DNA of 50,767 nt from positions 1 through 50,767 of IMG/VR virus record IMGVR_UViG_3300031951_000241; one strand, given 5' to 3'. The notes under the pieces are model-generated. The model saw only the letters and a list, made by a program, of their open reading frames with translations. It did no database searches and was not told the origin of the DNA. Origin of the DNA: a virus. The translations under genes and the position numbers were made by a program. Below are positions 9-45,964 of the stretch, piece after piece (position 1 is the stretch's first letter; every line of letters begins with the position of its first letter).

Positions 9-1679
9 TTGAAACCGCCGGTGATACCGATTCCGGCGGGCAGCCCGCAACTGACCCAGTTCCAGAGGGAGGAACTGAAATCCCTCCAGAACGAGTTGCG
101 GGAGCGGAAGGTCGAGGCTCTGAAACTCTACCGGCCCAACCCGAACCAGGAAGCGTTCCACGCCTGCACGGCGAGTGAAGTCCTGGTCATCGGTGGGAAT
201 CGGTCTGGCAAGAGCCTCTGCACTTTTGTTGAGGATGCGAGGGCGGTAACTGGGCAAGACCCATATAACAAATACCCCAAGGAAAACGGCATCCTTGTTA
301 TTGTTGGAAAAGATTGGAAGCATCTAGGTTTGGTCTGCTACCCGCTTCTGATGAAAGAAGGGGCGTTCAAGATCATCAAGGACGCCGAGACGCAAGAGTG
401 GCGGGCCTTCGATCCTATTCTCGACAAGGATCGCCTCGCGGATGCCCGCCCCGCCCCGCCGCTCATTCCGCCGCGGTTCGTCAAGAAAGTCAGTTGGCTA
501 CTCAAGAGTGCCGGCTACTGCCAGAAGATTACATTGACCAACGGGTGGGAGATACATTTCTTCTCGTCCGAATCAGAACCTGTCCAGGGCTACCAATGTA
601 ACGTCGCCCATGTGGACGAGGACTTGGAGGATGAGCGTTGGATCGGCGAACTACAAGCGAGAATCGTTGACCGCCGGGGCCGCTTTCGGTGGTCGGCTAT
701 GCCGCATTCGACCAACAATGCCTTACTATCGCTGAAAGAACGGGCTGATGCTTGCGAGGCGGAACTAGGTGACAGGTCTTCGATTCGTCTGTTCCGCCTG
801 CGCTTTTTGGATAACCCTTATCTGAATCCCGAAGAGAAGGCCCTCTCCATCGCTCGATGGGCGGCATCGGGTGACGATGTATTGCGAATGCGGAGCGAGG
901 GCGACTTCACCGTGGATTCGGTGCTGGTCTACCCCAACTTCGATATGGCGATCCACGGGTTTGACCGGGCCGATTTGCCGGGCGGTCAGGTTCCTCCCGA
1001 TTGGTGCCGCTACGCCGTCATCGACCCAGGCCACGCCGTCACGGCCTGCCTCTTCCTGGCTGTTCCTCCAGAGGGCGACTTCTGGTTGGTCTATGACTCG
1101 CTATATCTGCGGCAAGCCAACGCCGTGATATTTGGCGAGCAGTTCGCCAAGAAGGTGGGCAATGACCACTTCTACGCATTCTTGATCGACGCCCACGGTG
1201 GCCGGCTCCGCGACATCGGCTCCGGCCGGCTGCCAGTGGAGCAATACACCGAGCAACTGACGAAGTGGAAGGTGCGATCCGAAGTCACTGGATCGTCATT
1301 CCTGGCCGGCTGCGATGACATCATCGCCCGCTGTGAAGCCACCAGGACGGCTCTCCATATCCGCCCAAGCGGGACGCCGACGATCCGCATCCTCCGCGGG
1401 GCTGCGACCGACCTGGAGAGGGAAATCAAGCGGTATCGCAAAATCACCAACTACATCAGCGGCGTGGCGGTTGTTACCGACAAGCCCAATACCCGCGGTG
1501 AAGTCCATGCTTGCCAGTGCCTCGAATACCTCGCGGCATACCGCCCCTCTTATCACAAGCCGCCCATCCGCGACCAAGTCGATCCTTGGTGGATCAAATG
1601 GATGGAAAAACGGAAAAAGCGACTAGGTGAGGATGGCCGGGCTTATGTTAATCTAGGCCCACAAGGAGGAATCAACTAA
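9..1679 (+). CDS. terL: terminase large subunit (DNA packaging motor)
   Basis: ATP-driven motor and nuclease that packages phage DNA into the prohead through the portal. The ATPase Walker A is GGNRSGKS at about residues 62-69 and the acidic Walker B is VDED near 202-205. The C-terminal RNase H-like nuclease half shows AVIDPGH (Asp339) and FLIDAHGG (Asp394). The length of 556 residues is normal for TerL. The start shown is a TTG only 9 bases into the window, so the true start may lie upstream and the gene may be 5'-truncated by the window edge. It overlaps the next gene by one base (TAATG), with an AGGAGG-like site before that ATG. The family call is firm; the start is uncertain. Confidence 0.93.
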   Translation: MKPPVIPIPAGSPQLTQFQREELKSLQNELRERKVEALKLYRPNPNQEAFHACTASEVLVIGGNRSGKSLCTFVEDARAVTGQDPYNKYPKENGILVIVGKDWKHLGLVCYPLLMKEGAFKIIKDAETQEWRAFDPILDKDRLADARPAPPLIPPRFVKKVSWLLKSAGYCQKITLTNGWEIHFFSSESEPVQGYQCNVAHVDEDLEDERWIGELQARIVDRRGRFRWSAMPHSTNNALLSLKERADACEAELGDRSSIRLFRLRFLDNPYLNPEEKALSIARWAASGDDVLRMRSEGDFTVDSVLVYPNFDMAIHGFDRADLPGGQVPPDWCRYAVIDPGHAVTACLFLAVPPEGDFWLVYDSLYLRQANAVIFGEQFAKKVGNDHFYAFLIDAHGGRLRDIGSGRLPVEQYTEQLTKWKVRSEVTGSSFLAGCDDIIARCEATRTALHIRPSGTPTIRILRGAATDLEREIKRYRKITNYISGVAVVTDKPNTRGEVHACQCLEYLAAYRPSYHKPPIRDQVDPWWIKWMEKRKKRLGEDGRAYVNLGPQGGIN

Positions 1680-1987
1680 TGCCAGATTTTGTAATGCCGA
1701 AACCCCGCCCAGGCGACTTGGTACTTTTCTCGCACGATATCAGCAACTTCTCCACTCCGGTGCTGGGGTGGGTGCAGGACGATCGTGGCGAGTCTGCGAT
1801 TAACCTTCTCGCGTTTTCGCTGGGTGGGTTCGTTTACAAAACCAGCGTCCACCACAAGGACGATCCTGCCCTTCTCGAAAACCCCGGCTGGCATGAGTTT
1901 GGTTGCTGGGATTACGCCCCTATCACGAAGCAACTCCAAGAACTAGCGAAGCATGGAAACCAGAACGCCAAGCCTGCCGGAAAGTAA
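1679..1987 (+). CDS. small protein between terminase and portal, unknown
   Basis: A 102-residue soluble protein that I do not recognise. It begins with a PKPRPGDLVLFSHD segment and is rich in Trp and aromatic residues; the wording (GDLVLFS, GWVQDDRG, GGFVYKTSVHHKDD) suggests a small beta-barrel. The start ATG overlaps the terminase stop by one base and has AGGAGGA about 8 bases upstream, so translation is well supported. It overlaps the portal start by 35 bases. Its position between packaging and portal genes suggests a role in packaging or head assembly, but it does not look like a helical small terminase subunit. Function is inference only. Confidence 0.75.
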   Translation: MPDFVMPKPRPGDLVLFSHDISNFSTPVLGWVQDDRGESAINLLAFSLGGFVYKTSVHHKDDPALLENPGWHEFGCWDYAPITKQLQELAKHGNQNAKPAGK

Positions 1988-3947
1988 CCCTCTCCGGCAA
2001 CTCGTTCGCACCTGGACTAAGAAGTTCGAGGCTGCGCTGAAATATAAGAAGCCATTTGCCGATGACGGCAAAGAGGCTGCGATGTTCTACGATTCCGACC
2101 ACAACTCCATGTGGTCGAACTCTTACTCCAGGGGTGAGAAGGGTTACAACACCAGCATTGCGCCGCCCGCATTCAGAATGCAGGTTAACAAGGTGTTTGA
2201 ACTCATCGACACCTTTGGAAGTGTCATTTATCACAGGAATCCGGTTCGCACTGTAACACTGACTCAACAGCCAGACCTCCCTGCCGAAGCGTATGGGCTT
2301 CCGCAGGATATGTCGATGATGGGGCCAGAGCAGCAAGAACTGATGGCTCTCGCCCAGCAAGACGCCGAGGGACGGATGAGCCGCGAAATCTCGCGGCAGT
2401 TGATCGAAGCCTACCTCAACTTCACGCCCGACCACCTGGACTTGAAGCGTCAGTCTCGCAAGATGGTTGACGAGGCGTTGATGAAGGGGATGGGTACGCT
2501 CTGGACTGAACTCGTTACGCTCGATGCCCCAGGCGAACCGGTGCGGGTTGTAGGCTCGTTTTACGATACGGTTGACAACTTACTAATCGACCCCGACTTC
2601 GACAACATGGACGATATGCAGTGGTGCGCTCGCCGCTGCATTCGCCCGCTCGAAGAGGTTGCCGCTCAGTTTCAGATTCCAGAGGGCGACCTGGAAAAGC
2701 ACCTGGACGGCAACGCCGAAATCAAGGCTGACAACGAGCCGCGGACGAACAAGCGCAAGCCCGGCCAGACCCAGCGGCTAGTCACCTATTACAAAGTGTG
2801 GTCGAAGTGTGGGTTGGGCGACCGATTCAAGGACGCCCCGAAAGAGTCGAAGGGGATTTTTGACGCGGTTGGTAAATACGTTTACCTCGTCATCTGCGAA
2901 GGGGTCGAGTACCCCTTGAATATGCCTCCCGCTGTAATGGAGGAAGAGGTCGATCCGCAGACCGGGCTGCCCCAGAGTCTCCTGGTACGGACGGCATGGC
3001 CCGTTCCGTACTACGTTGAACCGAACGGCTGGCCTTTCACCCCGCTGGCATTCCATACCAAACCCGGTTACGCATGGCCGATCAGCCATATCAAACCCGC
3101 AATCGGGGAGTTGCGAATGCTGAACTGGGGAATGAGTTTCCTCGCCAGCCGCGTTGCGACTTCGTGCGAAACCATCCTCGCCGTACAGAAGGCCGCCGAC
3201 CAGGAACTCAAGGATCAACTCCTCGCGCCCAGTGAGGGAGGATTCAAGGTAGTCGAGTTGGCGGAACTGCTAGGCCGGCGGATTGAGGACGTTATTAGCG
3301 TTTTCAGAATGCCGGAAGTCACGAAAGACTTGTGGGACATTCTCACCGCGGTGGCCGAACAGTTCGCGATTCGCACCGGCCTGACAGAGTTGGTGCAGGG
3401 CTACACACGTTCCATGTTCCGATCGGCCGCCGAGGCGACGATCAAGCAGGAGAACGTGAGTATCAGACCCGACAACATGGCGAACGAGTTGGAAAATGCT
3501 ATGTCCGCTCTGTCGCGTCGCGAGGCTCTCGCCGCCCGCTGGTTGCTCGAATCTGGTGACGTTGCCAGCATTCTTGGGCCGATGGGTGCCATTGCATGGG
3601 AAAGGCACGTTGCGAAACGCGACCTCGCATCCCTCTCCCGCGACTTCTTATTCCGCGTCGAGGCTGGCAGCGCGAGGAAACCCAACAAGGCAAGCCGCGT
3701 CGAGCAAATGACACTCGCCGTGCAGACGCTCGCCCCGATCCTTGCACCGCTGGCTTCGAGCGGACTTGTCCAGCCCTTCAATAGCCTCATCTCTGATTGG
3801 GCTACTTCGCTCGATATCAATGCCGACCCCTACCTCATCCCTCCCCCGCCGGCCGCGCCGCCCGGTCTGCCCACCCCTCCCGCAGAGCCGGGCCAGGACG
3901 CGCCGGTGGGGGAGGTTGAACAACTACCGCCGGAGTTAGCCGGGTGA
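1953..3947 (+). CDS. portal protein (head-to-tail connector)
   Basis: Predicted to form the dodecameric ring at the capsid vertex through which DNA passes. It is 664 residues long, within the range of podoviral portals. It has the composition of a portal: long amphipathic helices, many Trp/Tyr, an acidic N-terminal half with PDFDNMDDMQWCARR near residue 210, and a Gln/Glu-rich helical zone. The C-terminus is a proline-rich tail (PPPPAAPPGLPTPP) ending near residue 660. It follows terminase, the usual order. The start ATG lies inside the upstream gene, with a weak ribosome site. Portal families diverge strongly, so the call rests on position, size and texture rather than on a sharp motif. Confidence 0.8.
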   Translation: METRTPSLPESNPLRQLVRTWTKKFEAALKYKKPFADDGKEAAMFYDSDHNSMWSNSYSRGEKGYNTSIAPPAFRMQVNKVFELIDTFGSVIYHRNPVRTVTLTQQPDLPAEAYGLPQDMSMMGPEQQELMALAQQDAEGRMSREISRQLIEAYLNFTPDHLDLKRQSRKMVDEALMKGMGTLWTELVTLDAPGEPVRVVGSFYDTVDNLLIDPDFDNMDDMQWCARRCIRPLEEVAAQFQIPEGDLEKHLDGNAEIKADNEPRTNKRKPGQTQRLVTYYKVWSKCGLGDRFKDAPKESKGIFDAVGKYVYLVICEGVEYPLNMPPAVMEEEVDPQTGLPQSLLVRTAWPVPYYVEPNGWPFTPLAFHTKPGYAWPISHIKPAIGELRMLNWGMSFLASRVATSCETILAVQKAADQELKDQLLAPSEGGFKVVELAELLGRRIEDVISVFRMPEVTKDLWDILTAVAEQFAIRTGLTELVQGYTRSMFRSAAEATIKQENVSIRPDNMANELENAMSALSRREALAARWLLESGDVASILGPMGAIAWERHVAKRDLASLSRDFLFRVEAGSARKPNKASRVEQMTLAVQTLAPILAPLASSGLVQPFNSLISDWATSLDINADPYLIPPPPAAPPGLPTPPAEPGQDAPVGEVEQLPPELAG

Positions 3948-16760: not shown

Positions 16761-19700
16761 GTGCCACAGTCGCGTCGCTCCCTGCGCCCAGGAAAGTCCA
16801 GAAATCGCGGGCTTTCGCAGGTTCGCTCTGCAACCAGAATGTTGCAATATGACGCGAGCGAACAGACGACGATGTGGCCCAACTCGTCAAGCAACTTTAT
16901 CACTGAACCGTTTTCGCTATCCAACTCCGCGCCGGCATTTTGGTGGGATTTTAGCGATGCCGGATACGTCGCTGACAGCGAGGGCGAGGTTCCGACGGGT
17001 GGAAACTCCACTTTAACCCCCGGCGGAACCTTCTCTTATGTGTATGACAAGTCAGGGAATGGGGTCGGCGGGGTTGTTTCTGGAACAGTCATTTGGGACT
17101 TGAACACGCCGGGTATGAATGGGCGGATTTGCGCCAGAACTACCGGTGCAGGATTCATTCGGGCAGACACTGGATATGCCCTTAATGGCGGAACACTGTT
17201 CATCGTTTACCAAAATGACGAGTTTCAAACAGGCGCATCGCCCTTTGCATCCCCCAGAAATCTGTATCACACAGACCATCCAACGACCGGCTCGTCGAGC
17301 GTCGGCATTCGGATGGAAAATGATTCCAACGGCACATATCTCTACTTAGGCAACGGCACTGCCGCTAACGCTACTTCGGCTGGCATTACGCAAAGGGGCG
17401 ACCTCGGCGTGTCGGTGCATATCCTTCGCGTGGCTGGCGACGGCACGGCGCAGGTCAGGCATAACGGCGAGTGGCAGCCGGTAGTGTCGGTTCCAAACCT
17501 CACTACCACCGGCTGGAACAACTCGTTCAGTCTGTTCAAAGGATTTAACCAGGATGCCGAGCGCAACTGGAAGGGGGCTGTTGGCGAGGTCATCATGCTT
17601 GACCAGCCACTAAGCGACAAGGAGGTCGATGGGGTCGAGTCTTGGTTGATGGAAAAGTGGGGCATCACAAAATATCGCAACACCATCGCAACCGAACTCA
17701 GTGCGGTAACAACCCCACTCGACCTGGGGCTTCCCTGTTCGCTCTGGCTCGACGCCTCGGATACCAGTTCTTCCTCGATGACGTTTGTCCCAGGCACCAC
17801 TCAGGCAATCGTCTGGAAGGACAAATCCGGCAACGGCAATAACTTCACGCCATACAACACCTCCGGCCCGCTAACAACCGTCGGCCCAAGCAGCATCCCA
17901 TACGCCTTCACGGGGTCGGTCATTCCAACCAAGAGCATACTGCTATTCGCCGGCAACCTTGGGATGACCTGTCCGAACAACGTGATAGGGAAATCCAATG
18001 TCACGGTGTTCGCGGTGGTGGGCGAAAGGGTCGCGCAGCAATATGCGGGAGTCATCTCGTCGGCCAATAACGCCGACAACACGCCTGCCCTTCGGGTGGA
18101 CAACTTCCAAATGGCGATGCAGGGCCAGACTACCGCTGCGTATGAAGGAGTTGCTTACAACCGGCTTACTCAAGTCATCTGCGGCATCGTCGATGCCGGT
18201 GCGCCAACGCTGTTTATGAACAGCGCGCAGAAGCAGTCGCCCGCTGCCACCGGGTCGCTTGGTAGCCCTACCACCACCTCGATCGGCTCGAACAGAATCC
18301 AGGGGGCATCGCAAAACTTTTGGGATGGATGGATTTGTGAACTCATCGTCTACCCCAGCGTGTTGAGCGCGACAGACCGCAAGCGGGTGGAGAAGTATTT
18401 GCGGGGTAAGTGGCTGCCGGCCGTCTCGATTACCGATCAGTCGCAGAAGGTTGGGGCGTGGAAGGAATACACCACCAACACCTACGACGCAAAGCAAGCC
18501 ACCACAGCCAACAAGCCGACGCTGGTGTATGACGCGACAACAACCAAGCCTGGGCTTTCGCTCGACGCAACCGACGAACTTCGCAGCGAGATTAGCATCG
18601 GAGAGTTGATCCTGACGGCTAACACTTCGCCGCAGACCGCATTCTTTTTCGTTGCCTCACCTACCTCGCAAACAGATGCCATTTCCTTTGGTTCGCCAAC
18701 TATGGCGAATAGCGTGAGTCGTGTGTTCTTTTCTTCGTACTTCGGCGGCAGCGTGATATTTGATGTTGGTAGTGCCGTCGAGCCAGGGGGCGGGAGACTG
18801 ACGGGCGCGCTTCCCCCATATTCCACTGCCCCGCGGGTGTGGGCGGCCTACCGTAATGGGGCGTCGCTTGTAGTCCGCCGCGACGGTCTAGTCGCCCTCA
18901 GTGGCGCAGCGGCTGGAAACTTCACTTCCACATCAGCGACCCTGTCTCTCGGCAAGCCGCTTGCTGGAACCAGCAATTGCACTATCCACGAGTTTCTGGC
19001 CTACCGCGGCGTGCCTACGGACGCCGAAATCAAGTTGATCGAAAAATACTTATCAGCGAAGTGGCTGACGCGGTACGCTCCAACCGTTGGCAATCCAGAT
19101 GCCCAAGATTGGATCAGACGGGTGTACCTCAACGGAGGCGAAGTCTCGGCCGCAACGGCTGATGCAGTTAATACTTTTTGTAATACCATTGACGGCTTCG
19201 GAAATCTGCGGCCACTGTTCTTCCGTTTGAACTTACTATGCGGCACTGGCATCAACGCCATGACTGTGCCGCTATACCGCGGGCCTACTCGAACCGGGCA
19301 GCAGTACGGCCTGTCGGCAGACTCGAACCTTGGAAGCCCAGGCTTCGATTCGCCGACGTTCTACAATGAAACCGGCACGCTCGGAGGATTGCAGGGGGCA
19401 AGCGGGAAGTATCTCAGCACGGGATTCCCAACCAACACGCTCTCGGCCGGCAACCGCCATCTCGCGGCGTATGTCCGGTCGAATCCACTAGCGGCGTACA
19501 CAGAGTTTCTGGGGTCTGAAACGTCAGGCGGTGTCGGGACGAACCAGTTTCTTCTTGGATACCAAGTTGATAACAATCGAGTTTCGTTTCGCTGCGGCTC
19601 AACCTCCTCGGCCGGTGCAGTGTCGGCCGTCCAAACTGCCGGAGGGTTCTGGATTGGGTCGAGTCCGACAACGACAACGGCAGACCTTTTCAAGAACGGT

Positions 19701-19919
19701 GCCGTGGAAGTCTCTGGGGCATCCACAAGCGTCGGCACTCCAGACTCGTCGCCTGTGTTCGTGATGGCGATGAACCGTTCTTCAACGCCGGCAGCGACCG
19801 ACTACTTCCTGGGCCGTATGTGTGCCTACTCGATCGGCCTCTCCATGAACTCGACCCAGGCCGCGAACTACAACACCGCGATGCAAGCGTTCCAGGTCGC
19901 TCTCCAGAGGAACGTGTGA
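16761..19919 (+). CDS. tail-fibre-like protein with repeated LamG/concanavalin-type domains
   Basis: A 1052-residue GTG-start protein (AGGAG about 6 bases upstream). At least three LamG-like units are visible. Each unit opens with a W-x-D/DKSGNG signature (FWWDFSDAG near 60, CSLWLDASD near 326) and closes with a helix such as VESWLMEKWG (about 291), VEKYLRGKWL (about 544) and IEKYLSAKWL (about 759). A related C-terminal unit follows. LamG/concanavalin folds bind sugars, so the likely role is receptor recognition on the host surface. The end overlaps the next gene by one base. The repeat pattern is seen directly; sugar specificity is unknown. Confidence 0.82.
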   Translation: MPQSRRSLRPGKSRNRGLSQVRSATRMLQYDASEQTTMWPNSSSNFITEPFSLSNSAPAFWWDFSDAGYVADSEGEVPTGGNSTLTPGGTFSYVYDKSGNGVGGVVSGTVIWDLNTPGMNGRICARTTGAGFIRADTGYALNGGTLFIVYQNDEFQTGASPFASPRNLYHTDHPTTGSSSVGIRMENDSNGTYLYLGNGTAANATSAGITQRGDLGVSVHILRVAGDGTAQVRHNGEWQPVVSVPNLTTTGWNNSFSLFKGFNQDAERNWKGAVGEVIMLDQPLSDKEVDGVESWLMEKWGITKYRNTIATELSAVTTPLDLGLPCSLWLDASDTSSSSMTFVPGTTQAIVWKDKSGNGNNFTPYNTSGPLTTVGPSSIPYAFTGSVIPTKSILLFAGNLGMTCPNNVIGKSNVTVFAVVGERVAQQYAGVISSANNADNTPALRVDNFQMAMQGQTTAAYEGVAYNRLTQVICGIVDAGAPTLFMNSAQKQSPAATGSLGSPTTTSIGSNRIQGASQNFWDGWICELIVYPSVLSATDRKRVEKYLRGKWLPAVSITDQSQKVGAWKEYTTNTYDAKQATTANKPTLVYDATTTKPGLSLDATDELRSEISIGELILTANTSPQTAFFFVASPTSQTDAISFGSPTMANSVSRVFFSSYFGGSVIFDVGSAVEPGGGRLTGALPPYSTAPRVWAAYRNGASLVVRRDGLVALSGAAAGNFTSTSATLSLGKPLAGTSNCTIHEFLAYRGVPTDAEIKLIEKYLSAKWLTRYAPTVGNPDAQDWIRRVYLNGGEVSAATADAVNTFCNTIDGFGNLRPLFFRLNLLCGTGINAMTVPLYRGPTRTGQQYGLSADSNLGSPGFDSPTFYNETGTLGGLQGASGKYLSTGFPTNTLSAGNRHLAAYVRSNPLAAYTEFLGSETSGGVGTNQFLLGYQVDNNRVSFRCGSTSSAGAVSAVQTAGGFWIGSSPTTTTADLFKNGAVEVSGASTSVGTPDSSPVFVMAMNRSSTPAATDYFLGRMCAYSIGLSMNSTQAANYNTAMQAFQVALQRNV

Positions 19920-26339: not shown

Positions 26340-27182
26340 CTACCGGAGTGGTGGCGGCGAGGGCGGCAACTGGAGGGTCAGGCTCGCGTCGATGTAGTGC
26401 CTTGCCGCCAGCCCAGGATTGCAAGCAGAATGCCCCAGGAACTTCGTAGCCTGCCCTGGTTGCTCCATCTCGACATACGTTGCCCCCGAGCGTCTCAGCC
26501 ACCGCGGCGACCCGCTGATGGCATTCTCTTTGAGGAACGAACGCCACACTGCCATCGCCCGCTTTCTCGGCAACGCCCAGGAGAATATGGTCTGGTCTGG
26601 CGACCGCTCCGCGAGTGCCATCACCTTCTCGGTGGCGTAGGCCGACAGTCGCCTGACCGTCAGTTTGCTGGTCTTCTGTGCCGTGAGTGCCACGCAACCG
26701 TTGGCAATCGCGTCCTTCCGCAACGCGAGGATATCCCCGAGGCGTATACCCGAGTCATACGCGAGGGAAATCCACGCCGGCAGAACGTCGCACCGCCGCA
26801 CGCCGGGGAGCCGGTTCGAGATTCGCTTCTGGTCTTTCTCGGCGAGGTCGAGGAGTTTGCGCAGCGTGTCGAGGCTCCAGGCCCGCGGCGGTTTTGGGGT
26901 GGCCTTGATTGCCATCACCCGCAGCGGCGGAATCTCGGTCAAGTCGGATTCGTAGGCCCACTTCCAGAGGGTCAGCAACTCCCGCCTCATATTGCTCCGA
27001 GTCACGGCCGAAACCGTGCTGGCCCGCAGAAACTGATTGACCCGAACCGGGGTCATTGCAGCGATATCGGGGACGCCGTATGCTGCCGCCCGCCGAACGG
27101 TTCTCCGCAGGGATTCTTGGTAGCGGGGCGAGGCTTCTCTCTCAGAGAGATACGCATCGAGCAAGTCAAAAAGGGACATCAT
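26340..27182 (-). CDS. int: tyrosine-type site-specific recombinase (phage integrase)
   Basis: Catalyses integration and excision between attP and a host att site. The N-terminal SAM-like core-binding domain covers about residues 1-90. The catalytic half shows SGIRLGD (Arg147), TAQK (Lys170), WLRRSG (Arg230), LGHSACNPG (His251) and HYID (Tyr263 as nucleophile). The usual His before the second Arg is replaced by Arg227 (PRWLRR), which is odd but tolerated in some members. I chose ATG 27182 (CAGGAG seven bases upstream) rather than an in-frame ATG 147 bases further up. The 280-residue length is normal. Transcribed leftward, convergent with the structural genes; a tRNA-like attP core lies about 160 bases beyond its start. 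Confidence 0.9.
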   Translation of the reverse strand: MMSLFDLLDAYLSEREASPRYQESLRRTVRRAAAYGVPDIAAMTPVRVNQFLRASTVSAVTRSNMRRELLTLWKWAYESDLTEIPPLRVMAIKATPKPPRAWSLDTLRKLLDLAEKDQKRISNRLPGVRRCDVLPAWISLAYDSGIRLGDILALRKDAIANGCVALTAQKTSKLTVRRLSAYATEKVMALAERSPDQTIFSWALPRKRAMAVWRSFLKENAISGSPRWLRRSGATYVEMEQPGQATKFLGHSACNPGLAARHYIDASLTLQLPPSPPPLR

Positions 27183-27327
27183 CGCGGTACTCCTGTTGAG
27201 TGGTGCATAACCCTGCCATCTGTTTGCGCAAGGTGCCACCACTGGGTGGGTCAAAAAGTTGGGTTGGGGGTTCCGGCTGTTCCGGTTATTCCGCCAACTC
27301 CAAATCAACAAGAGAGTTTTGAGAGCC
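27183..27327. promoter_or_regulatory. divergent region between integrase and RecE-like gene
   Basis: A 145-bp region with an 8-base palindrome TTGCGCAA near 27224-27231, short GGGTTGGGGGTTCCGG repeats, and purine-rich sequence before the RecE-like start. Promoters for both directions must lie here or within the flanking genes, but I see no strong -35/-10 pair. It is probably the arm-site part of attP. Stated as context rather than as a proven promoter. Confidence 0.4.
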
Positions 27328-28269
27328 ATGACAGACAGACCTGACGCCGGCTCCCGGCTTCATAAGCCGGGGGTCGCCGGTTCGAGTCCGGCCGCCGCTA
27401 CTTCAGTCGTTCCATGCGCCGGTGGTGCTACCCTGCACCGCGGCGTCCCAGAAGAGGTCTACTTCGGGCCGACCTGGGCGGATCGGATTTCTGCATCCGA
27501 TCTGAAAGAGTTCTCATCGTCTCCGCTCTCATTCTACGAGCGGAAGATTTGCGGCACGGCACCGAAGCGTCAGTCGAAAGCACTGAACTACGGCAAGCGA
27601 CTCCACAGTTGGCATGAACTGGGAGAGGATCGCTTTTGGGACACCTTGGAGATTGTGCCGCCCGAGTTCGAGTTGGCGACCGGCGGCGTGTCTAAGAAGG
27701 GCGAGTCGTGGGTAGCCAGCCTGCCGCCCGACAAGTCGCCCATCACGGTCGCCGAGCGCGATCAGTTGTGGAAGGCGACGCGACTCATTCTCGGACACAC
27801 CGCGGCGATGCGGTATATCCGCAATCGTGTCGATGCCGAGTTCTGTGTTCAGTGGGACTGCAACGGCACGCCGATGCGGTCGCGCATTGACGGTGCCACC
27901 GAGGACGGCTTCTACGATTTAAAAACCACCAGTGACGAAGATGTCATGGGGCGGTGGTGGCATAGCGTCCGCACCTGGAAGTTCGACCTCCAGGCTGCCG
28001 TCTATCTCGACGCTGCAATCGCTGCGGATTGGAAGCCGCACGACATGCGCTTCATCGTTTCCCAGAGCGTGTGGCCGTATCAGTGCCACGTTGTCTGGCT
28101 GCCATCGTCAGTGGTGAGTCGCGCACGCGATCGGATGCTGCGACTCCTTGACGATCTTCGCAATCGCATGGAGTGGGATTCGTGGATGCCGGAGGATTAC
28201 GGCGAAGAGACAGAACTTTACTGCCCGAACTTTATGAAGGGAGAGTCATCAGATGAATGGTCAGAATGA
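27328..28269 (+). CDS. RecE-like exonuclease (PDDEXK family)
   Basis: Predicted 5'-3' dsDNA exonuclease that makes 3' single strands for annealing. The N-terminal part has the RecE/PDDEXK-type entry ADRISASDLKEFSSSPLSFYE. The catalytic motif is Asp188 (SRIDGA) and Asp197-Leu-Lys199 (YDLKTT). The start is a problem. ATG 27328 would include the tRNA-like attP core as AGSRLHKPGVAGSSPAAAT (a well-known translation of tRNA sequence), and no other ATG/GTG/TTG in frame precedes the conserved part (about residue 50 onward). So either the coding frame really starts inside attP, or a CTG or other start is used. It overlaps the ERF gene by 17 bases, and the two surely act together. Confidence 0.82.
   Translation: MTDRPDAGSRLHKPGVAGSSPAAATSVVPCAGGATLHRGVPEEVYFGPTWADRISASDLKEFSSSPLSFYERKICGTAPKRQSKALNYGKRLHSWHELGEDRFWDTLEIVPPEFELATGGVSKKGESWVASLPPDKSPITVAERDQLWKATRLILGHTAAMRYIRNRVDAEFCVQWDCNGTPMRSRIDGATEDGFYDLKTTSDEDVMGRWWHSVRTWKFDLQAAVYLDAAIAADWKPHDMRFIVSQSVWPYQCHVVWLPSSVVSRARDRMLRLLDDLRNRMEWDSWMPEDYGEETELYCPNFMKGESSDEWSE
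27341..27400 (+). other. attP: attP candidate: 3' half of a tRNA(CAU) gene
   Basis: The segment folds as the 3' part of a tRNA: D-stem remnant GGCT, anticodon stem CCGGC/GCCGG with a seven-base loop TTCATAA (anticodon CAT), five-base variable loop GGGTC, T arm GCCGG-TTCGAGT-CCGGC, then acceptor CGCCGCT and discriminator A at 27400. No matching 5' acceptor AGCGGCG is found upstream, so it is not a whole tRNA gene. A tRNA 3' half beside an integrase is the classic attP core. The CAT loop lacks the GGG/CCC initiator pairs, suggesting elongator Met or Ile-2. Confidence 0.8.
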
Positions 28270-28942
28270 TCCTGGGAATCGCGTGTTTCTTTTTCGGCGA
28301 GAGCAATCGCCGACTCTCGAAAAACTGTTCGCCGCACTGGCCGAGACGAAACTCGATCCAGATTGGCACGCAGTGGTGGCGAAGAATGCTCATGCCCAGT
28401 ACGGGGCGTTCGCCAATATGGCTGCGTTGATCGAGGCCACCGAGGCTGCCCTGGCACGCCACTCGCTGGTCATCAACCAGACCTTCCATCACGACAGCGA
28501 CGGGATGCCGATCCTTCTCGTCACCGAGTTGGGGCATGGCGGAAGCGGTCAGTTCATCCGCTCGATCCTGCCAATCCCCAAGGCCCAGAAGGTGCAGGAA
28601 ACGAAGAGTGCCATCACCTACATGCGCCGCACGGGGTATGAGGCGATCCTGGGACTCGCCCCTGCCGACCCGCGGGCTGACGATGATGGCGATGCGGCCA
28701 ACGGAGCGGCCAACAGCAACGGCAATGGCGGCGGCAACTCGAAGGCCGCCCTGCACCGCCGCAACGAGATGGCGGCGAAGCAGAAGATTCTGGCGGCCAA
28801 AACTCCGGCCGAGTTGAAGACGCTTCTCGACAAGGTTCATGCCTACATCGCCGAGGGCAATCTGCCAGAGGACGCCCTCGACCGGATGCAGATGGCGGCT
28901 GCCAATCGTCGCGAGGAAATCGGCGATGCCAAAGCGTCGTGA
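28253..28942 (+). CDS. erf: ERF-family single-strand annealing protein
   Basis: Anneals complementary ssDNA during phage recombination. The conserved ERF wording is clear: KNAHAQYGAFANMAALIEATEAALARHSL (residues about 44-73), HHDSDGMPILLVTELGHGGSGQ (82-103) and TKSAITYMRRTGYEAILGLAP (120-140). An acidic, Asn/Gly-rich linker (DDDGDAANGAANSNGNGGG) leads to a C-terminal helical tail. The 229-residue length is usual. The start has GGGAGAG upstream and overlaps the exonuclease end. With the RecE-like gene it forms a two-component recombination system; RecE is more often paired with RecT, so the RecE/ERF pairing is a mixed set. Confidence 0.88.
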   Translation: MNGQNDPGNRVFLFRREQSPTLEKLFAALAETKLDPDWHAVVAKNAHAQYGAFANMAALIEATEAALARHSLVINQTFHHDSDGMPILLVTELGHGGSGQFIRSILPIPKAQKVQETKSAITYMRRTGYEAILGLAPADPRADDDGDAANGAANSNGNGGGNSKAALHRRNEMAAKQKILAAKTPAELKTLLDKVHAYIAEGNLPEDALDRMQMAAANRREEIGDAKAS

Positions 28943-29188: not shown

Positions 29189-30748
29189 ATGCGAATGGAG
29201 TCGCAAGGCGTGAGTAGGCAGTTTGATCTTTTCGATGTTGGGAGAGAAGGCGCAACCTTCATCCCACGACCCTATCAGGTGGAATGCCGTCGCGCCGTCG
29301 AAAGCGCGTGGAGGGAGCATGATCGCGCTCTTGCCGTCGTTGCCACGGGACTAGGGAAAACGGAGATATGTGCCTCACTCATTCACGGTGCTGATTCCGA
29401 AGGATTGGATACTCTCTGTGTCACCCCCTTCATCGACCTCACTGCCCAAACGGCTGGGCGGCTGCGGTCGAGGGGGGTGGCCTGCGGGGTGGAGCAAGCA
29501 TCCCTCCGCAGTGACGCACGCCACACGGTCGCCTGCTACGCGAGCCTGTTGAGCCGCAACCGCTGGCAGAACTATGTCGGCCGCGTCAAGCGCGTCGTTG
29601 TAGATGAGGTACATCTCAACTACACGAAGGCGTCGATGAAAATGCTCGACGCATTTCTTGAAAGCGGTGCCAAGATTCTGGGGATGACGGCGACGCCCGA
29701 GCGGCTGGGCGACCCCATCACCGACTACTACGGCAAGCCGGTCTACACCTACAACTACCACTCCGCGCTCGATGACGGCTGGCTAGTCCCGGCCAAAATC
29801 TGGTTGAGCATCCTCGAATCCCTGGACTGCCGCGGCGTTCGCAAGGCAGGCGGCGACTTCGATCCGGTCGAACTTGCCCGCATCATGGCCCAGGAAAAGA
29901 ACGTCCAGGGTATTTGCTCGTTGATCGAGCAACACTACGAAAACCTCCCGAGCGTCGTGTTCTGCCAGGGGATATGGCAAGCCGAGGCCGTGCATAAGGG
30001 TCTGGCCCGCCGCGGCATCTGGTCGAGCATCGTCCACTCCAGAATGGAACCCGAGGAGCGGCGGATGCACCTCAAGGACTTCGAGGACGGCACGACCAAT
30101 ATCATCATCAACGTCGGCTGCCTTTGCGTTGGATGGGACGAACCGCGGCTCCGAAAACTATTCATCGCCAAGCCGACATTGAGCCGTGCCAAATACAACC
30201 AGATGTACGGGAGGTTGGTTCGCCCGTGGCCGAAGACCGTTGACGGCTTGCATTCCGCCGAGTCGAGGAAGAAAGCCATCGCGGCCTCGCCCAAACCGGA
30301 CTTCGAGGTTTTCGACATCACCGATAGTTCGCGGCACAACGACCTCCGCTCTGCGATCGACGTTCTTGTTCCTGACATCGAGCCGCTCCTTGCCGCCCGC
30401 ATCAAGCGGCAGATTGAGAAGAAGCCCGCATCGCTGGGCCAACTCGATGAAATCGTGAAGGCCGAGGCAGAGGCGATGGCTCGCGAGCAAGCCGCCAAGG
30501 ATGCCCTGACCGAGCATCTGCGGGCCGGCATGATCGGCCACGGTCGATTCAGCCACTACGGCAGAGACATCTACGCCACCGCAGAAAGGCCAGAGAGAGT
30601 GAAGCGAACATACACCCACATGCCCTTCGGCCGGTTCAAGGGGCAGGCGATCAAGTCGATGCCCAAACCATACATTCGTATTCTGTTTCGCGATTTCAAA
30701 CTCCACGCGGACTTGAAAGAGGCGTTACAGAAGAGGCTCGATAGTTAG
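29189..30748 (+). CDS. SF2 DEAH-type helicase with C-terminal DUF3820-like domain
   Basis: ATP-dependent DNA/RNA helicase or translocase. Motif I is TGLGKTE (residues 53-59), motif II DEVH (139-142), motif III TATP (167-170), and motif VI appears as QMYGRLVRP in the second RecA domain. The last part, HMPFGRFKGQAIKSMP near residues 477-492, matches the DUF3820 pattern I remember (FGRYKG..I..MP). The Q-motif area PRPYQVECRRAVE lies at 26-38. The length of 519 residues fits a phage helicase of the UvsW/RecG-like type. The start at 29189 is ATG, with a second ATG six bases later. Probably helps recombination or replication restart beside RecE/ERF. Confidence 0.85.
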   Translation: MRMESQGVSRQFDLFDVGREGATFIPRPYQVECRRAVESAWREHDRALAVVATGLGKTEICASLIHGADSEGLDTLCVTPFIDLTAQTAGRLRSRGVACGVEQASLRSDARHTVACYASLLSRNRWQNYVGRVKRVVVDEVHLNYTKASMKMLDAFLESGAKILGMTATPERLGDPITDYYGKPVYTYNYHSALDDGWLVPAKIWLSILESLDCRGVRKAGGDFDPVELARIMAQEKNVQGICSLIEQHYENLPSVVFCQGIWQAEAVHKGLARRGIWSSIVHSRMEPEERRMHLKDFEDGTTNIIINVGCLCVGWDEPRLRKLFIAKPTLSRAKYNQMYGRLVRPWPKTVDGLHSAESRKKAIAASPKPDFEVFDITDSSRHNDLRSAIDVLVPDIEPLLAARIKRQIEKKPASLGQLDEIVKAEAEAMAREQAAKDALTEHLRAGMIGHGRFSHYGRDIYATAERPERVKRTYTHMPFGRFKGQAIKSMPKPYIRILFRDFKLHADLKEALQKRLDS

Positions 30749-38579: not shown

Positions 38580-39428
38580 CTACTTCGGCGTCGGCCTTTT
38601 TATCTCGCCGCGGCGTATCTTGTTCCATCGCCGCACAAGTTTCTTGCCGTCAGTAACAACGGGATATTCTAACTCATGGGCAGCAATGGCCCATTGCACC
38701 GCCTTGATATTCGAGAACTTCCGCTTGGTCAGGAACTCCTTCTGGTGCAGGCACCACAGGGCGATCTTCTCCTGGCTCCAGCCCGCCGCCTTCTTGGCGT
38801 ATATCTCTGCGACATACTCCCGCTCTCTCAGGTCGAGGACGAACCGGCGGGTGGATTTCATGGTGCCGGATTCCCGCACACCCTTGCCAACTATTTTCCA
38901 GCCCACCGGGGAATGTTTACCTAGCGGGAGTTTGTGCTTCTTGCGATACGAAATAATCTCAGCGGCCCGCTCTCTCGCAAACTCACGCTCCAGTTCAGCG
39001 ACCGACAGGAGAATGTTGAAGAAGAATCTCCCGGCCGGCGTCGATGTGTTGACTCTGATATCGAGCGAGACGAACCGAACCTTCCGCCGCTTCAACGCTT
39101 CGATGGTGATGACGCCGTCGGACACGCTGCGGAATGCACGGTCGAGCCGAGCCGTGACAACGTAATCCTTCGGCCGAGCAATGGCGTAGACGGTGCGGCC
39201 ATGCTCTCTCTCGGAGAAGGAAGTGCCACCCCGCACCGCCTTGTCGTAGTAGAAGCCGCCCCATCGGACGCCCTTCCGCTTGAGATTCGACCGCCAATAC
39301 TGCTTGACCTTGGCACACTGTGCCGACTTGGTCAGCCCCTGCTTGACGGTGCTATGCCGGCCGTAGCCGTAGCACACCGGCCCCCCGCTAATCGTCGGTG
39401 ATTCGTTTTCCGAACACGCACTTTTCAT
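38580..39428 (-). CDS. serine-type site-specific recombinase
   Basis: A 282-residue protein with resolvase features: YGYGRHSTVKQ (Ser26 nucleophile, Arg24), ARLDRAFRS (Arg97, Arg100 near the active site), LSVAELEREFARERAAE (long E helix). A basic C-terminal part with an HTH-like stretch (AAGWSQEKIALWCLHQKEFL) follows. Large serine integrases are longer (450-600), so this is nearer the resolvase or IS607/transposase-type length. The start is uncertain: ATG 39428 or GTG 39377 just before VCYGYG (GGGGGG upstream). It is leftward and separate from the tyrosine integrase. It could resolve dimers, invert fibre genes, or act on a mobile piece; no inverted repeats seen beside it. Confidence 0.82.
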   Translation of the reverse strand: MKSACSENESPTISGGPVCYGYGRHSTVKQGLTKSAQCAKVKQYWRSNLKRKGVRWGGFYYDKAVRGGTSFSEREHGRTVYAIARPKDYVVTARLDRAFRSVSDGVITIEALKRRKVRFVSLDIRVNTSTPAGRFFFNILLSVAELEREFARERAAEIISYRKKHKLPLGKHSPVGWKIVGKGVRESGTMKSTRRFVLDLREREYVAEIYAKKAAGWSQEKIALWCLHQKEFLTKRKFSNIKAVQWAIAAHELEYPVVTDGKKLVRRWNKIRRGEIKRPTPK

Positions 39429-39732
39429 ATAGGTCAGTGTCGGCCGCCAGATGCAGGAGCGCAAGCGCAACCGCACCGTTGACCGACAGATCATCCCCCT
39501 TGTCAAAAGTCTGGTGAAACTTCCGCAACGTGACGCGGCAGTAGTCGAGAAAGCCGGGCGGCGGCACGATATCCCAGAGTCGTTTGCTGACCGCAGGATC
39601 GTCTATCGAGTTGCCGCCGCCCAGTAACTGTGAAATGGAATCCAGCATCGGCGTGCCGAGAATCTTCGTCGTGTCGTTGAAGATAATCTCGGCGAGGTAC
39701 AGCAATACCTCTTCACGCAGTTGCGGATTCAT
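39388..39732 (-). CDS. unknown protein (115 residues)
   Basis: A helical protein (MNPQLREEVLLYLAEIIFNDTTKILGTPMLDSISQLLGGG) with an acidic mid-part and ending HLAADTDLYEKCVFGKRITDD. The front is amphipathic and Leu-rich. The frame overlaps the recombinase start by 41 bases if the ATG is used. No family known. Confidence 0.62.
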   Translation of the reverse strand: MNPQLREEVLLYLAEIIFNDTTKILGTPMLDSISQLLGGGNSIDDPAVSKRLWDIVPPPGFLDYCRVTLRKFHQTFDKGDDLSVNGAVALALLHLAADTDLYEKCVFGKRITDD

Positions 39733-43586: not shown

Positions 43587-43672
43587 CAGTCATTCCCTCC
43601 ATTGAGAAACAGGTGAAAGAAATACGCCACGGCACAGAGAACAACCAGCGTCAGGAGCGGATCATCCTTCAT
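43586..43672 (-). CDS. 28-residue membrane peptide
   Basis: A tiny gene: ATG 43672 gives MKDDPLLTLVVLCAVAYFFHLF, one hydrophobic helix. GGGAGGGGGTGGGC lies before it. It overlaps the metallopeptidase/VWA gene by 11 bases and its stop overlaps the next ATG (TGATG). Its fit in the operon supports it, but it is short and could be spurious. Confidence 0.45.
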   Translation of the reverse strand: MKDDPLLTLVVLCAVAYFFHLFLNGGND

Positions 43673-44849
43673 AGCCCACCCCCTCCCAGCACTGAACAAC
43701 CCTAGCCCACGCCGGCGTCGGATAGGAACACTCGCGAACGATGGCGATGACAAGCCGAGCGCGGGTTCGCTTACTCGGCCAATCGGTTTCGCCGTCAGTG
43801 ATGACCACGATGCAATCGGTTTTTTGCTTGTCAGCAAACTGAACCGCATCGTCCATCGAGGTGCCGCCGCCGCCGTCCCAGGAGAATCCCGACATCGAGA
43901 CGAGCCGCTTGTCGGATTGGAGGTCGGCATCCCAGCACACGACCCGCGGCCGATGCACCTTCCGCAGACCGGAAGCAACCGCAGCACAAGCCGGGCCGAC
44001 ACAATCCTCCATCGAGCCGGAGGTATCCACGACGATCGTGCATTCCGGCGAGAGACGAATCACACCGGGCCGCCGAGCCACGCCGGGCGATTGCCGGCGG
44101 GACATCTTGCGATAGGTGAACTCGTCTTCCCCGATCGGGCTTGCGACAGACCGAGAAACAATCTCCCGCAGCACCACCGTCCAATCACGAACACGACCGA
44201 GCCGCCGGTCGATCGCCCGCCGCAGGCACCCCGGCGTCGAGCCGGGCTTGGTCTTCTCGATCTTGGCAATCTCGTCGGCGACCTTCGCGAGTTTGCCCTC
44301 CATGCTGGCCGAGCCGGCACCGGGCCGCTCGCCAGGGCGAGGGTTGCCGTCGGCACATGACCCGCCCGTCTCGGGATTTCCTGGCGTCTCATCCTCGGGG
44401 ATGCCGGCCCGCAGTAGGTCAGCGTACCGCTCAGTGGTCAGACCATGAACGATGCCCGGCACCTTGCGATACTTCTCCCAGGTGACGATGAAGTCAGGCT
44501 CCCAATCGCCGGCATCCCTTGCGAGAGCCGTCTGGATGCACATATCGGCGGCGATATTCCAGATCGTGAAGTCACGCTCAGTGGGGGCATCGCACCACAC
44601 CGCCCGCCGCTTGTGGTGGGACAGAGCAAGATGGAACGTCTCATGGAGCAAGACATACGCGACTTGTTCCACGGGCAGACCCTCCACGAACTTCTCGGAG
44701 TAGTAGCACCGCCCTTGCGCATCGACGCCCATCGTCTCGACCTGTTCGCACGGGGTGCATGGCATCCCGTAGACCAACGCCGAGAGGTAGGGAAACTTCC
44801 GGCGGCACAGGTCTTTCGCCTTAAACAGTTTCTTTGTGGCTTTCTTCAT
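43662..44849 (-). CDS. DUF2201-like metallopeptidase + VWA domain protein
   Basis: A 395-residue protein from ATG 44849 (MKKATKKLFKAKDLC). The N-terminal half has HETFHLALSHH: HExxH with His69, Glu70, His73, then WNIAADMCIQ, as in putative metallopeptidases of the DUF2201 type. The C-terminal VWA domain has the MIDAS: TIVVDTSGSM (Asp275, Ser277, Ser279), GGGGTSMDD (Thr330), ITDGE (Asp352). A disordered linker with Pro/Gly joins them. It directly follows the MoxR ATPase (two bases apart), the usual partner pair: the ATPase remodels, the VWA protein binds substrate. Confidence 0.85.
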   Translation of the reverse strand: MKKATKKLFKAKDLCRRKFPYLSALVYGMPCTPCEQVETMGVDAQGRCYYSEKFVEGLPVEQVAYVLLHETFHLALSHHKRRAVWCDAPTERDFTIWNIAADMCIQTALARDAGDWEPDFIVTWEKYRKVPGIVHGLTTERYADLLRAGIPEDETPGNPETGGSCADGNPRPGERPGAGSASMEGKLAKVADEIAKIEKTKPGSTPGCLRRAIDRRLGRVRDWTVVLREIVSRSVASPIGEDEFTYRKMSRRQSPGVARRPGVIRLSPECTIVVDTSGSMEDCVGPACAAVASGLRKVHRPRVVCWDADLQSDKRLVSMSGFSWDGGGGTSMDDAVQFADKQKTDCIVVITDGETDWPSKRTRARLVIAIVRECSYPTPAWARVVQCWEGVGYEG

Positions 44850-44851
44850 GG

Positions 44852-45964
44852 TCAGGCACCCCCGTAGATAGCAGTGACGATCCGAGCGTGCCGTGCCGCC
44901 AACTTGGCCGGCATTTTGTAGGTCGGCAGGAGCGTTTTGATTTCGGCGAGGCACGGGATGGAGAGGTCAGGCTGATCGCCCTCGGCCATCTCCACCAGCA
45001 ACTCGCACGCCTTAGTTGCCATGTCATCCTCGACGCCACCGTCCTCGACCTTCCGCTCGCCGAGATACTGGACGATCGCAGACGGCAGGCCGATGAGCCG
45101 GTCGATGGTCTTCTCACTGACCTTGACCGTCTCGGTGCCAGCGAGGAACGCCGGAACGTCGATCATCGCGAGGTTGTCGAGCATCGCAAGCAACTCCGCA
45201 CCGGCACCCGTACCCACGGTGCCGCACACTAGTTGCGACCGGGTATCTTCGAGCATCCCCACCGAATCCGCAGCGGCGAGGCAGCGGACGGTGTTCCACC
45301 ACGAACGGGGCGACGGGAAAGCCAACTCGCCATCCGGCACCCGCTCGACACACATCAGCGACGGCTTGTTGCGTGTCAGCCGGGCGACGATGCCACCGAA
45401 CTTCGGCAGGAAGTGAGCGAACGAACCCACCTTCGGCACGTTGGTGGGCAGCGGGAAGTTTCCGCCGTTCGACAGACCCGCCCGCCACTCGTTGGCCGGG
45501 AAGACCCAATCATGGTGGTACATGCGGTTCGCCAGGGCAGGCTCCAACTCCGAGCCGTTAGGACACAGATCGGGCGGGTTGCACGCCGCCGTCACCACCG
45601 TCGTGCCGTGGAAGACCAGCGCACCGACGCGCCGCTCGTTGAAACACGACAGGAGCGGAGGCCGCATCTGCGTGCCGGCAGACGTTACCTCGTCGATATG
45701 CAACCAGCGGAGAGCCAGTTTCAGATCGAACATCCATTCCATCGGCGACATCCGGCAATGGCCGGTCGCCGCATCGTGGACGGGGATGCCGCCGATATCT
45801 TCCGGCGCGTGCTGACTCGGGATGAACACATGACAGACGTAGCCAAGGTGCCGAATCATCGCCTCGATGACGGCATTCTTGCCGACGCCGACGCCACCAC
45901 GGGCGACGGTAGAAACTCCAGCCTGGGCGGCGATGAAGAACGCCGCATTCGCACAAGAAACCAT
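44852..45964 (-). CDS. MoxR-type AAA+ ATPase
   Basis: A 370-residue AAA+ chaperone-type ATPase. Walker A is ARGGVGVGKN (Lys29; the usual Ser/Thr after Lys is Asn30, odd). Walker B is WLHIDEV (Asp91, Glu92), with sensor-1-like AACNP (Asn129) and a MoxR-style fold through FPLPTNVPKVGSFAHFLPK. MoxR proteins act with VWA proteins to remodel or activate targets. The start is ATG 45964 and is preceded by the repeated motif, a hairpin and TTTCTTTTC. The VWA/metallopeptidase gene starts two bases after its stop. Whether the Asn change affects ATP hydrolysis is unknown. Confidence 0.88.
   Translation of the reverse strand: MVSCANAAFFIAAQAGVSTVARGGVGVGKNAVIEAMIRHLGYVCHVFIPSQHAPEDIGGIPVHDAATGHCRMSPMEWMFDLKLALRWLHIDEVTSAGTQMRPPLLSCFNERRVGALVFHGTTVVTAACNPPDLCPNGSELEPALANRMYHHDWVFPANEWRAGLSNGGNFPLPTNVPKVGSFAHFLPKFGGIVARLTRNKPSLMCVERVPDGELAFPSPRSWWNTVRCLAAADSVGMLEDTRSQLVCGTVGTGAGAELLAMLDNLAMIDVPAFLAGTETVKVSEKTIDRLIGLPSAIVQYLGERKVEDGGVEDDMATKACELLVEMAEGDQPDLSIPCLAEIKTLLPTYKMPAKLAARHARIVTAIYGGA

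Follow-up and report, generated by a model that had tools for sequence, protein, structure and literature searches.

A tRNA-Met half-gene within a phage recE-like gene: a probable attP core and a candidate integration-linked switch

The integrase-recE junction and its tRNA half

The window analysed here is the whole of IMG/VR virus record IMGVR_UViG_3300031951_000241 (positions 1-50,767; 50,767 bp), and has a GC content of 60%. A tyrosine integrase gene on the minus strand and a RecE-like gene on the plus strand are divergent, and an ERF-like annealing protein and a helicase are encoded downstream of recE. The features of this region are listed below.

26340..27182, minus strand: tyrosine integrase (phrog_1 integrase, E=2e-15; Pfam Phage_integrase, PF00589, E=9e-4)
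27183..27327, plus strand: int-recE intergenic region (sequence), with GAGAG 4-8 nt before the ATG
27328..27353, plus strand: recE start codon ATG and leader codons 5' of the core (sole in-frame ATG upstream of the core)
27354..27400, plus strand: putative attP core, tRNA-Met(CAU) 3' half from anticodon arm to discriminator base (host tRNA match, partial Rfam match, recurrence)
27359..27365, plus strand: anticodon loop TTCATAA between the inverted repeat CCGGC/GCCGG, the inferred 7-bp crossover region (sequence)
27401..28269, plus strand: recE body, PD-(D/E)XK exonuclease VIII-like (phrog_412, PF12684, aligned relatives)
28253..28942, plus strand: ERF-like single-strand annealing protein (PF04404, phrog_2324), its start overlapping the end of recE
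29189..30748, plus strand: DNA helicase of the same rightward block (phrog_16, ResIII, Helicase_C)

The integrase shares 45-51% identity with the integrases found at the same position in other phages, and the invariant R, H and Y motifs are present in the alignment of the family, as befits a tyrosine integrase gene adjoining the core. The RecE-like open reading frame (ORF) is a real gene, matching the exonuclease VIII family phrog_412 (E=1e-26) and DUF3799 (PF12684, E=5e-10). Its identity as a RecE/exonuclease VIII-like PD-(D/E)XK protein rests on the profile match over the nuclease domain and on the adjacent ERF gene; 5'-3' double-strand exonuclease activity is inferred. The promoter and ribosome-binding site of recE presumably lie in the intergenic region. 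A scan of the site found no sigma-70-like promoter consensus and likewise no intrinsic terminator.

The recE frame runs from the ATG at 27328 through the tRNA half to 28269. An earlier sequence-only reading held that this is the only in-frame ATG 5' of the core and that translation would pass through the core, and both statements hold; in-frame TTG codons also occur at 27259 and 27319. A protein start mapped 3' of 27400 would have refuted that reading. The nucleotide sequence shows no canonical start from 27400 up to the conserved domain, no protein N-terminus having been mapped, and the first ATG, GTG or TTG downstream of the core comes only 189 nt after the conserved domain motif has begun.

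The core spans exactly 47 nt (27354-27400) and comprises the anticodon arm CCGGC-TTCATAA-GCCGG (27354-27370), the variable loop (27371-27375), the T arm (27376-27392), and the acceptor strand with the discriminator base (27393-27400). The half-tRNA had been recognized correctly from the letters alone, but its start had been placed at 27341, which takes in 13 nt of leader that are not tRNA. ARAGORN found no whole tRNA in the window, and the Rfam tRNA model matches 27343-27400 with 21.4 bits against a cutoff of 29, a shortfall expected because only half a tRNA is present. In the RecE frame the core translates as ...RLHKPGVAGSSPAAA, the core-encoded residues of RecE being LHKPGVAGSSPAAA.

The core is identical at 46 of 47 positions to the 3' half of the elongator tRNA-Met of two planctomycete genomes (G540 and G579), and differs at two of 47 from the tRNA-Met of nine others; a chance resemblance is therefore excluded. 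The sequence-only reading depended on a host tRNA(CAU) gene ending in the same sequence. Such tRNA-Met genes exist one mismatch away, but the host of the window phage itself was not found: a near-exact pattern with two free positions had no match in 84,980 genomes, and near-exact tRNA-half patterns had none in viral collections. The cores of related phages (see below) are identical to host tRNA-Met, the window core having its single mismatch in 47, and the element is by membership a tRNA-targeted tyrosine-integrase system. Copies of the 3' half elsewhere begin at or near the anticodon loop, that of genome G559 beginning at TTCATAA. Crossover is inferred to fall inside the anticodon loop, with a putative 7-bp overlap, TTCATAA, flanked by the inverted repeat; there are no recombination data.

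Several genes elsewhere in the window may be recorded. Besides the tyrosine integrase, a serine-recombinase gene is present at 38580-39506 on the minus strand (Resolvase N-terminal domain, E=2e-24), its role in the phage not being known. At 43662-45964 on the minus strand a DUF2201 metallopeptidase/VWA-like gene overlaps an ORF resembling an AAA ATPase (GVGKNAVIEAMI; no Pfam match), and the two resemble a MoxR/VWA-type pair in a phage. A 1052-aa ORF at 16761-19919 on the plus strand carries a concanavalin A-like Laminin_G_3 domain.

Recurrence of the fused gene in related phages

Single-sequence queries with RecE and integrase returned no relatives among viral contigs. The first relative was reached through its terminase, and is a 58.5-kb phage of the same gene order that carries a tRNA-Gly(CCC) half instead of tRNA-Met. 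Further phages came from alignment searches with integrase and RecE, and then more from the tRNA-half pattern, giving 23 distinct phage junctions, each consisting of integrase, start codon, tRNA 3' half and RecE body. The tRNA is Met in all except two, which have Gly-CCC. When the tRNA was not used as bait, the layout was present in every integrase relative of at least 45% identity and in four of four RecE relatives; it was absent from three distant integrases (34-36% identity).

At every one of the 23 junctions RecE can be read without a stop across the tRNA half, with two different tRNA frames in use; the third frame of tRNA-Met is closed by the TAA of TTCATAA. The chance of finding all frames open with an upstream start is about 1.6e-8 if the loci are independent. 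They are not fully so, and the junction counts ignore relatedness.

Two RecE clades carry the fusion. In the first, an upstream ATG or GTG is preceded by a clear Shine-Dalgarno sequence in most members (L036, L037, L038, L040, L041 and L073). In the second, the gene next to the fusion encodes a more remote relative of this integrase; ribosome-binding sites do not consistently precede the upstream starts, and the assignment of start codons is uncertain. At ten second-clade loci (L063, L064, L066, L067, L068, L075, L078, L081, L083 and L085) the open frame extends upstream beyond the start of the integrase gene, and the first or commonest ATG lies opposite the integrase start region. A leader start shared in this clade (MDVSP...) was not counted as evidence, since the start of the integrase gene and the ribosome-binding site of that gene occupy the opposite strand there. 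The leader drifts in sequence without codon-position bias (codon-position analysis), giving no sign of constraint at the protein level; the frame, therefore, is kept and the peptide is not.

Comparison with unfused genes bears on where translation once began. Where this integrase and the tRNA half are both absent, as in five RecE relatives, an ordinary ATG precedes the conserved motif by 13-18 codons. In the fused genes 10-20 codons separate the end of the tRNA half from the motif, which puts that end at about the native start position, and an ATG or GTG between core and motif is found in none of 23. A TTG is present there in three (L033, L067 and L083), and the near-cognate codons ATT, CTG and ATC occur in frame in many. 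The difference in starts between fused and unfused genes has a Fisher p of 1e-5, relatedness not being accounted for; since the sequences are related, this value is a guide only. Judged by their start codons, the fused genes have lost the native recE start.

Some other features of the junctions were observed. ARAGORN calls of tRNA-Met at four of them (L063, L068, L072 and L079) were judged spurious because a D arm is lacking. In five phages (L034, L037, L038, L040 and L041) an inverted repeat lies in the recE leader just after the start, with matching changes in both arms (examples being GTCAGGGT...ACCCTGAC and GTCAGGAT...ATCCTGAC), possibly as a protein-binding site or an mRNA hairpin. At L034, before recE on the minus strand, a strong Shine-Dalgarno sequence is followed by a three-codon ORF (ATG GTT TCC TAA) that overlaps the recE ATG as TAATG, suggesting translational coupling.

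Integrated forms in planctomycete genomes

A first draw of 392 Planctomycetota genomes yielded neither a RecE at the strict cutoff nor a tRNA half within two mismatches. A hybrid tRNA query was then assembled from the 5' half of one planctomycete tRNA-Met and the phage-borne 3' half, and was found identical at 74 of 74 positions in nine of 297 genomes from one planctomycete order; this host order was reached only by the hybrid query. A planctomycete genome, G603, holds an attL in which a complete host tRNA-Met is followed, 38 nt on, by the RecE body (E=1e-109), and then by ERF and a replication initiation gene. Another, G437, holds an attR consisting of an integrase of the family, the leader, the tRNA-Met 3' half and host flank. 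The empty attB is represented as well, the G437 host flank following an uninterrupted tRNA-Met in seven other genomes. Prophage attL and attR ends at tRNA-Met, which the sequence-only reading had proposed should be looked for, thus exist in relatives, and these two ends also bear out its proposal that integration separates the start from the gene body and leaves the rest behind a rebuilt host tRNA. These ends belong to two separate prophages, each on a draft contig, and neither is from the window phage.

When the RecE frame at the G603 attL is traced upstream it enters the tRNA and meets a TAG at tRNA positions 8-10. After this TAG the first ATG, GTG or TTG to appear is codon 173, 126 codons beyond the point at which the conserved motif begins. 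In host tRNAs (31 of 31) TAG closes both of the frames used, with no start between. Given the stop in the tRNA and the lack of a start at attL, RecE is not expected to be made by normal initiation. The RecE homologues of planctomycete genomes are for the most part less closely related (L125-L147), and no tRNA half precedes these.

Four further observations concern this site. Directly after the tRNA of the G603 attL, at L148 6960-7005 and inside the recE coding region, lies a long GC-rich hairpin of the CGCCCGGCCCCGG-TCA-CCGGGGTCGGGCG type, which might stop or process the tRNA transcript. Next to the G437 attR (L121, contig C205, positions 1600-3666) stands a tandem pair of integrase genes, both of this family, which may be left over from an integration that took place earlier. 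In another genome the same tRNA-Met is occupied by a different element, about 9 kb long (L118, G452:C1:97263-106278), bounded by the full tRNA and a 3'-half copy, after which the same host flank follows. Copies of the tRNA-Met 3' half are also carried by G540, G559 and G532, and tRNA-Met looks like a shared integration hot spot.

A proposed switch and its relation to known systems

We regard it as probable that the attP core of a temperate planctomycete phage lies in recE, that integration parts the start from the body and excision rejoins them, and that the recombination module is off in lysogens. The target of the tyrosine integrase would be the host gene for elongator tRNA-Met(CAU), namely its anticodon arm and 3' half. 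As long as the phage DNA is free, recE would form a single gene, made up of a start codon, a short leader, the translated tRNA half and the nuclease. Integration would keep the upstream region, ribosome-binding site, start codon and leader next to the integrase, at attR; at attL the rebuilt host tRNA would be followed by the nuclease body, ERF and the genes after it. There the frame, closed by the TAG of the tRNA and without a start codon, would give no RecE by normal initiation. The integrase keeps its upstream region at attR, and excision would therefore remain possible; by rejoining recE it would restore the start.

These steps do not all stand on the same footing. The layout and its recurrence, the open frame, the loss of the native start, the attL, attR and attB sites in related hosts, and the absence of a start at attL are established, at the level of DNA only. 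That the upstream start is used, that the promoter is lost, and that the module is off in lysogens and tied to excised or newly infecting DNA are inferences. Regulatory use, with RecE made in lytic growth and silent in lysogens, is likewise inference, in the absence of data on transcripts or proteins. Read most simply, integration is in itself an OFF switch; a neutral by-product is not excluded. The broader claim, of a switch conserved in this planctomycete phage group that turns recE off in every lysogen by DNA rearrangement without a repressor, and on only after excision, is favoured by no more than a modest degree.

The principal alternative accepts a genuine attP core in recE and denies it a regulatory role. 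Integrase, attP and recE would merely be crowded side by side, recE having taken over an upstream start when its native start was overwritten, and a repressor would keep RecE silent in lysogens in any case. An attP adjoining int is the usual phage layout, the leader peptide is unconstrained, and a single ancestral fusion could account for much of the recurrence. Set against these points, the fusion persists in two RecE clades, with either of two tRNA species and in either of two reading frames, and the native start is lost in all fused genes; the decapitated state also exists at a real prophage end, selected or not. This explanation is unlikely but cannot be set aside. A second alternative would begin RecE downstream of the core, at a near-cognate CTG, ATT or ATC or at TTG in some loci, making the open frame fortuitous and leaving the protein unaffected by integration. 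Most loci have near-cognate codons in frame and three have a TTG, and the end of the core is near the position at which unfused homologues have their native start. However, no downstream start is common to the 23 loci, an upstream ATG or GTG with a Shine-Dalgarno sequence is present in most of the first clade, and the probability calculated for the open frames, subject to the same incomplete independence, is very small; we consider a downstream start improbable. That integration instead turns the recombination block on, with the host tRNA-Met promoter driving transcription at attL of the recE body, ERF and the replication genes, has in its favour the shared direction of tRNA and body 38 nt apart and the ERF gene's own ATG, but the TAG and the lack of ATG, GTG or TTG before codon 173 mean that RecE itself would not normally be made, the GC-rich hairpin follows the tRNA in G603, and this possibility appears very slight indeed.

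The proposed switch resembles several known systems in part. In the split-operon and sib control of phage lambda, integration separates parts of a phage gene or control region, and in sib control the gene affected is int itself, by way of an RNA-processing site that lies 3' of it; no start codon is lost. The planctomycete phages share the separation of gene parts and differ in that recE is affected, by start codon loss. Mycobacteriophage BPs and its relatives show integration-dependent immunity, in which attP lies inside the repressor gene and the prophage form, its 3' end removed, is the active one (PMC4557955). The likeness is that attP lies within a phage ORF whose virus and prophage forms differ, as the 23 junctions and the G603 attL indicate here. 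The gene split in the planctomycete phages is not a repressor that sheds a C-terminal degradation tag; it is a recombination nuclease that loses its 5' end and start codon, and its prophage form is not normally made. The recE system is accordingly no member of the BPs type of immunity and works in like manner only. In myxophage Mx8, attP lies within int, and integration changes the 3' end and specificity of the integrase (PMC6070905). There too attP is in coding sequence and a recombinant gene is formed on integration, but the planctomycete phage integrase is untouched and it is the neighbouring recE that loses its start.

Elements with tyrosine integrases that target tRNA genes carry the 3' part of the tRNA and restore the gene, the displaced fragment marking the other end (Islander database, PMC4383910). 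The planctomycete phage does the same; unlike the non-coding fragment of ordinary elements, its tRNA half is read as part of a protein, so that a tRNA half-gene is kept as protein code in two reading frames. A RecE body directly behind tRNA-Met also offers a simple marker for planctomycete prophages. A full-text search of the open-access literature retrieved no report of an attP inside a recombination nuclease gene. The attP-in-gene switches that were found there act on a repressor or an integrase and change the 3' end; new here are the recombination nuclease affected, the removal of the start, and the ready-made stop that the host tRNA provides. If the arrangement acts as a switch, a DNA-degrading enzyme would be silenced in lysogens without a repressor.
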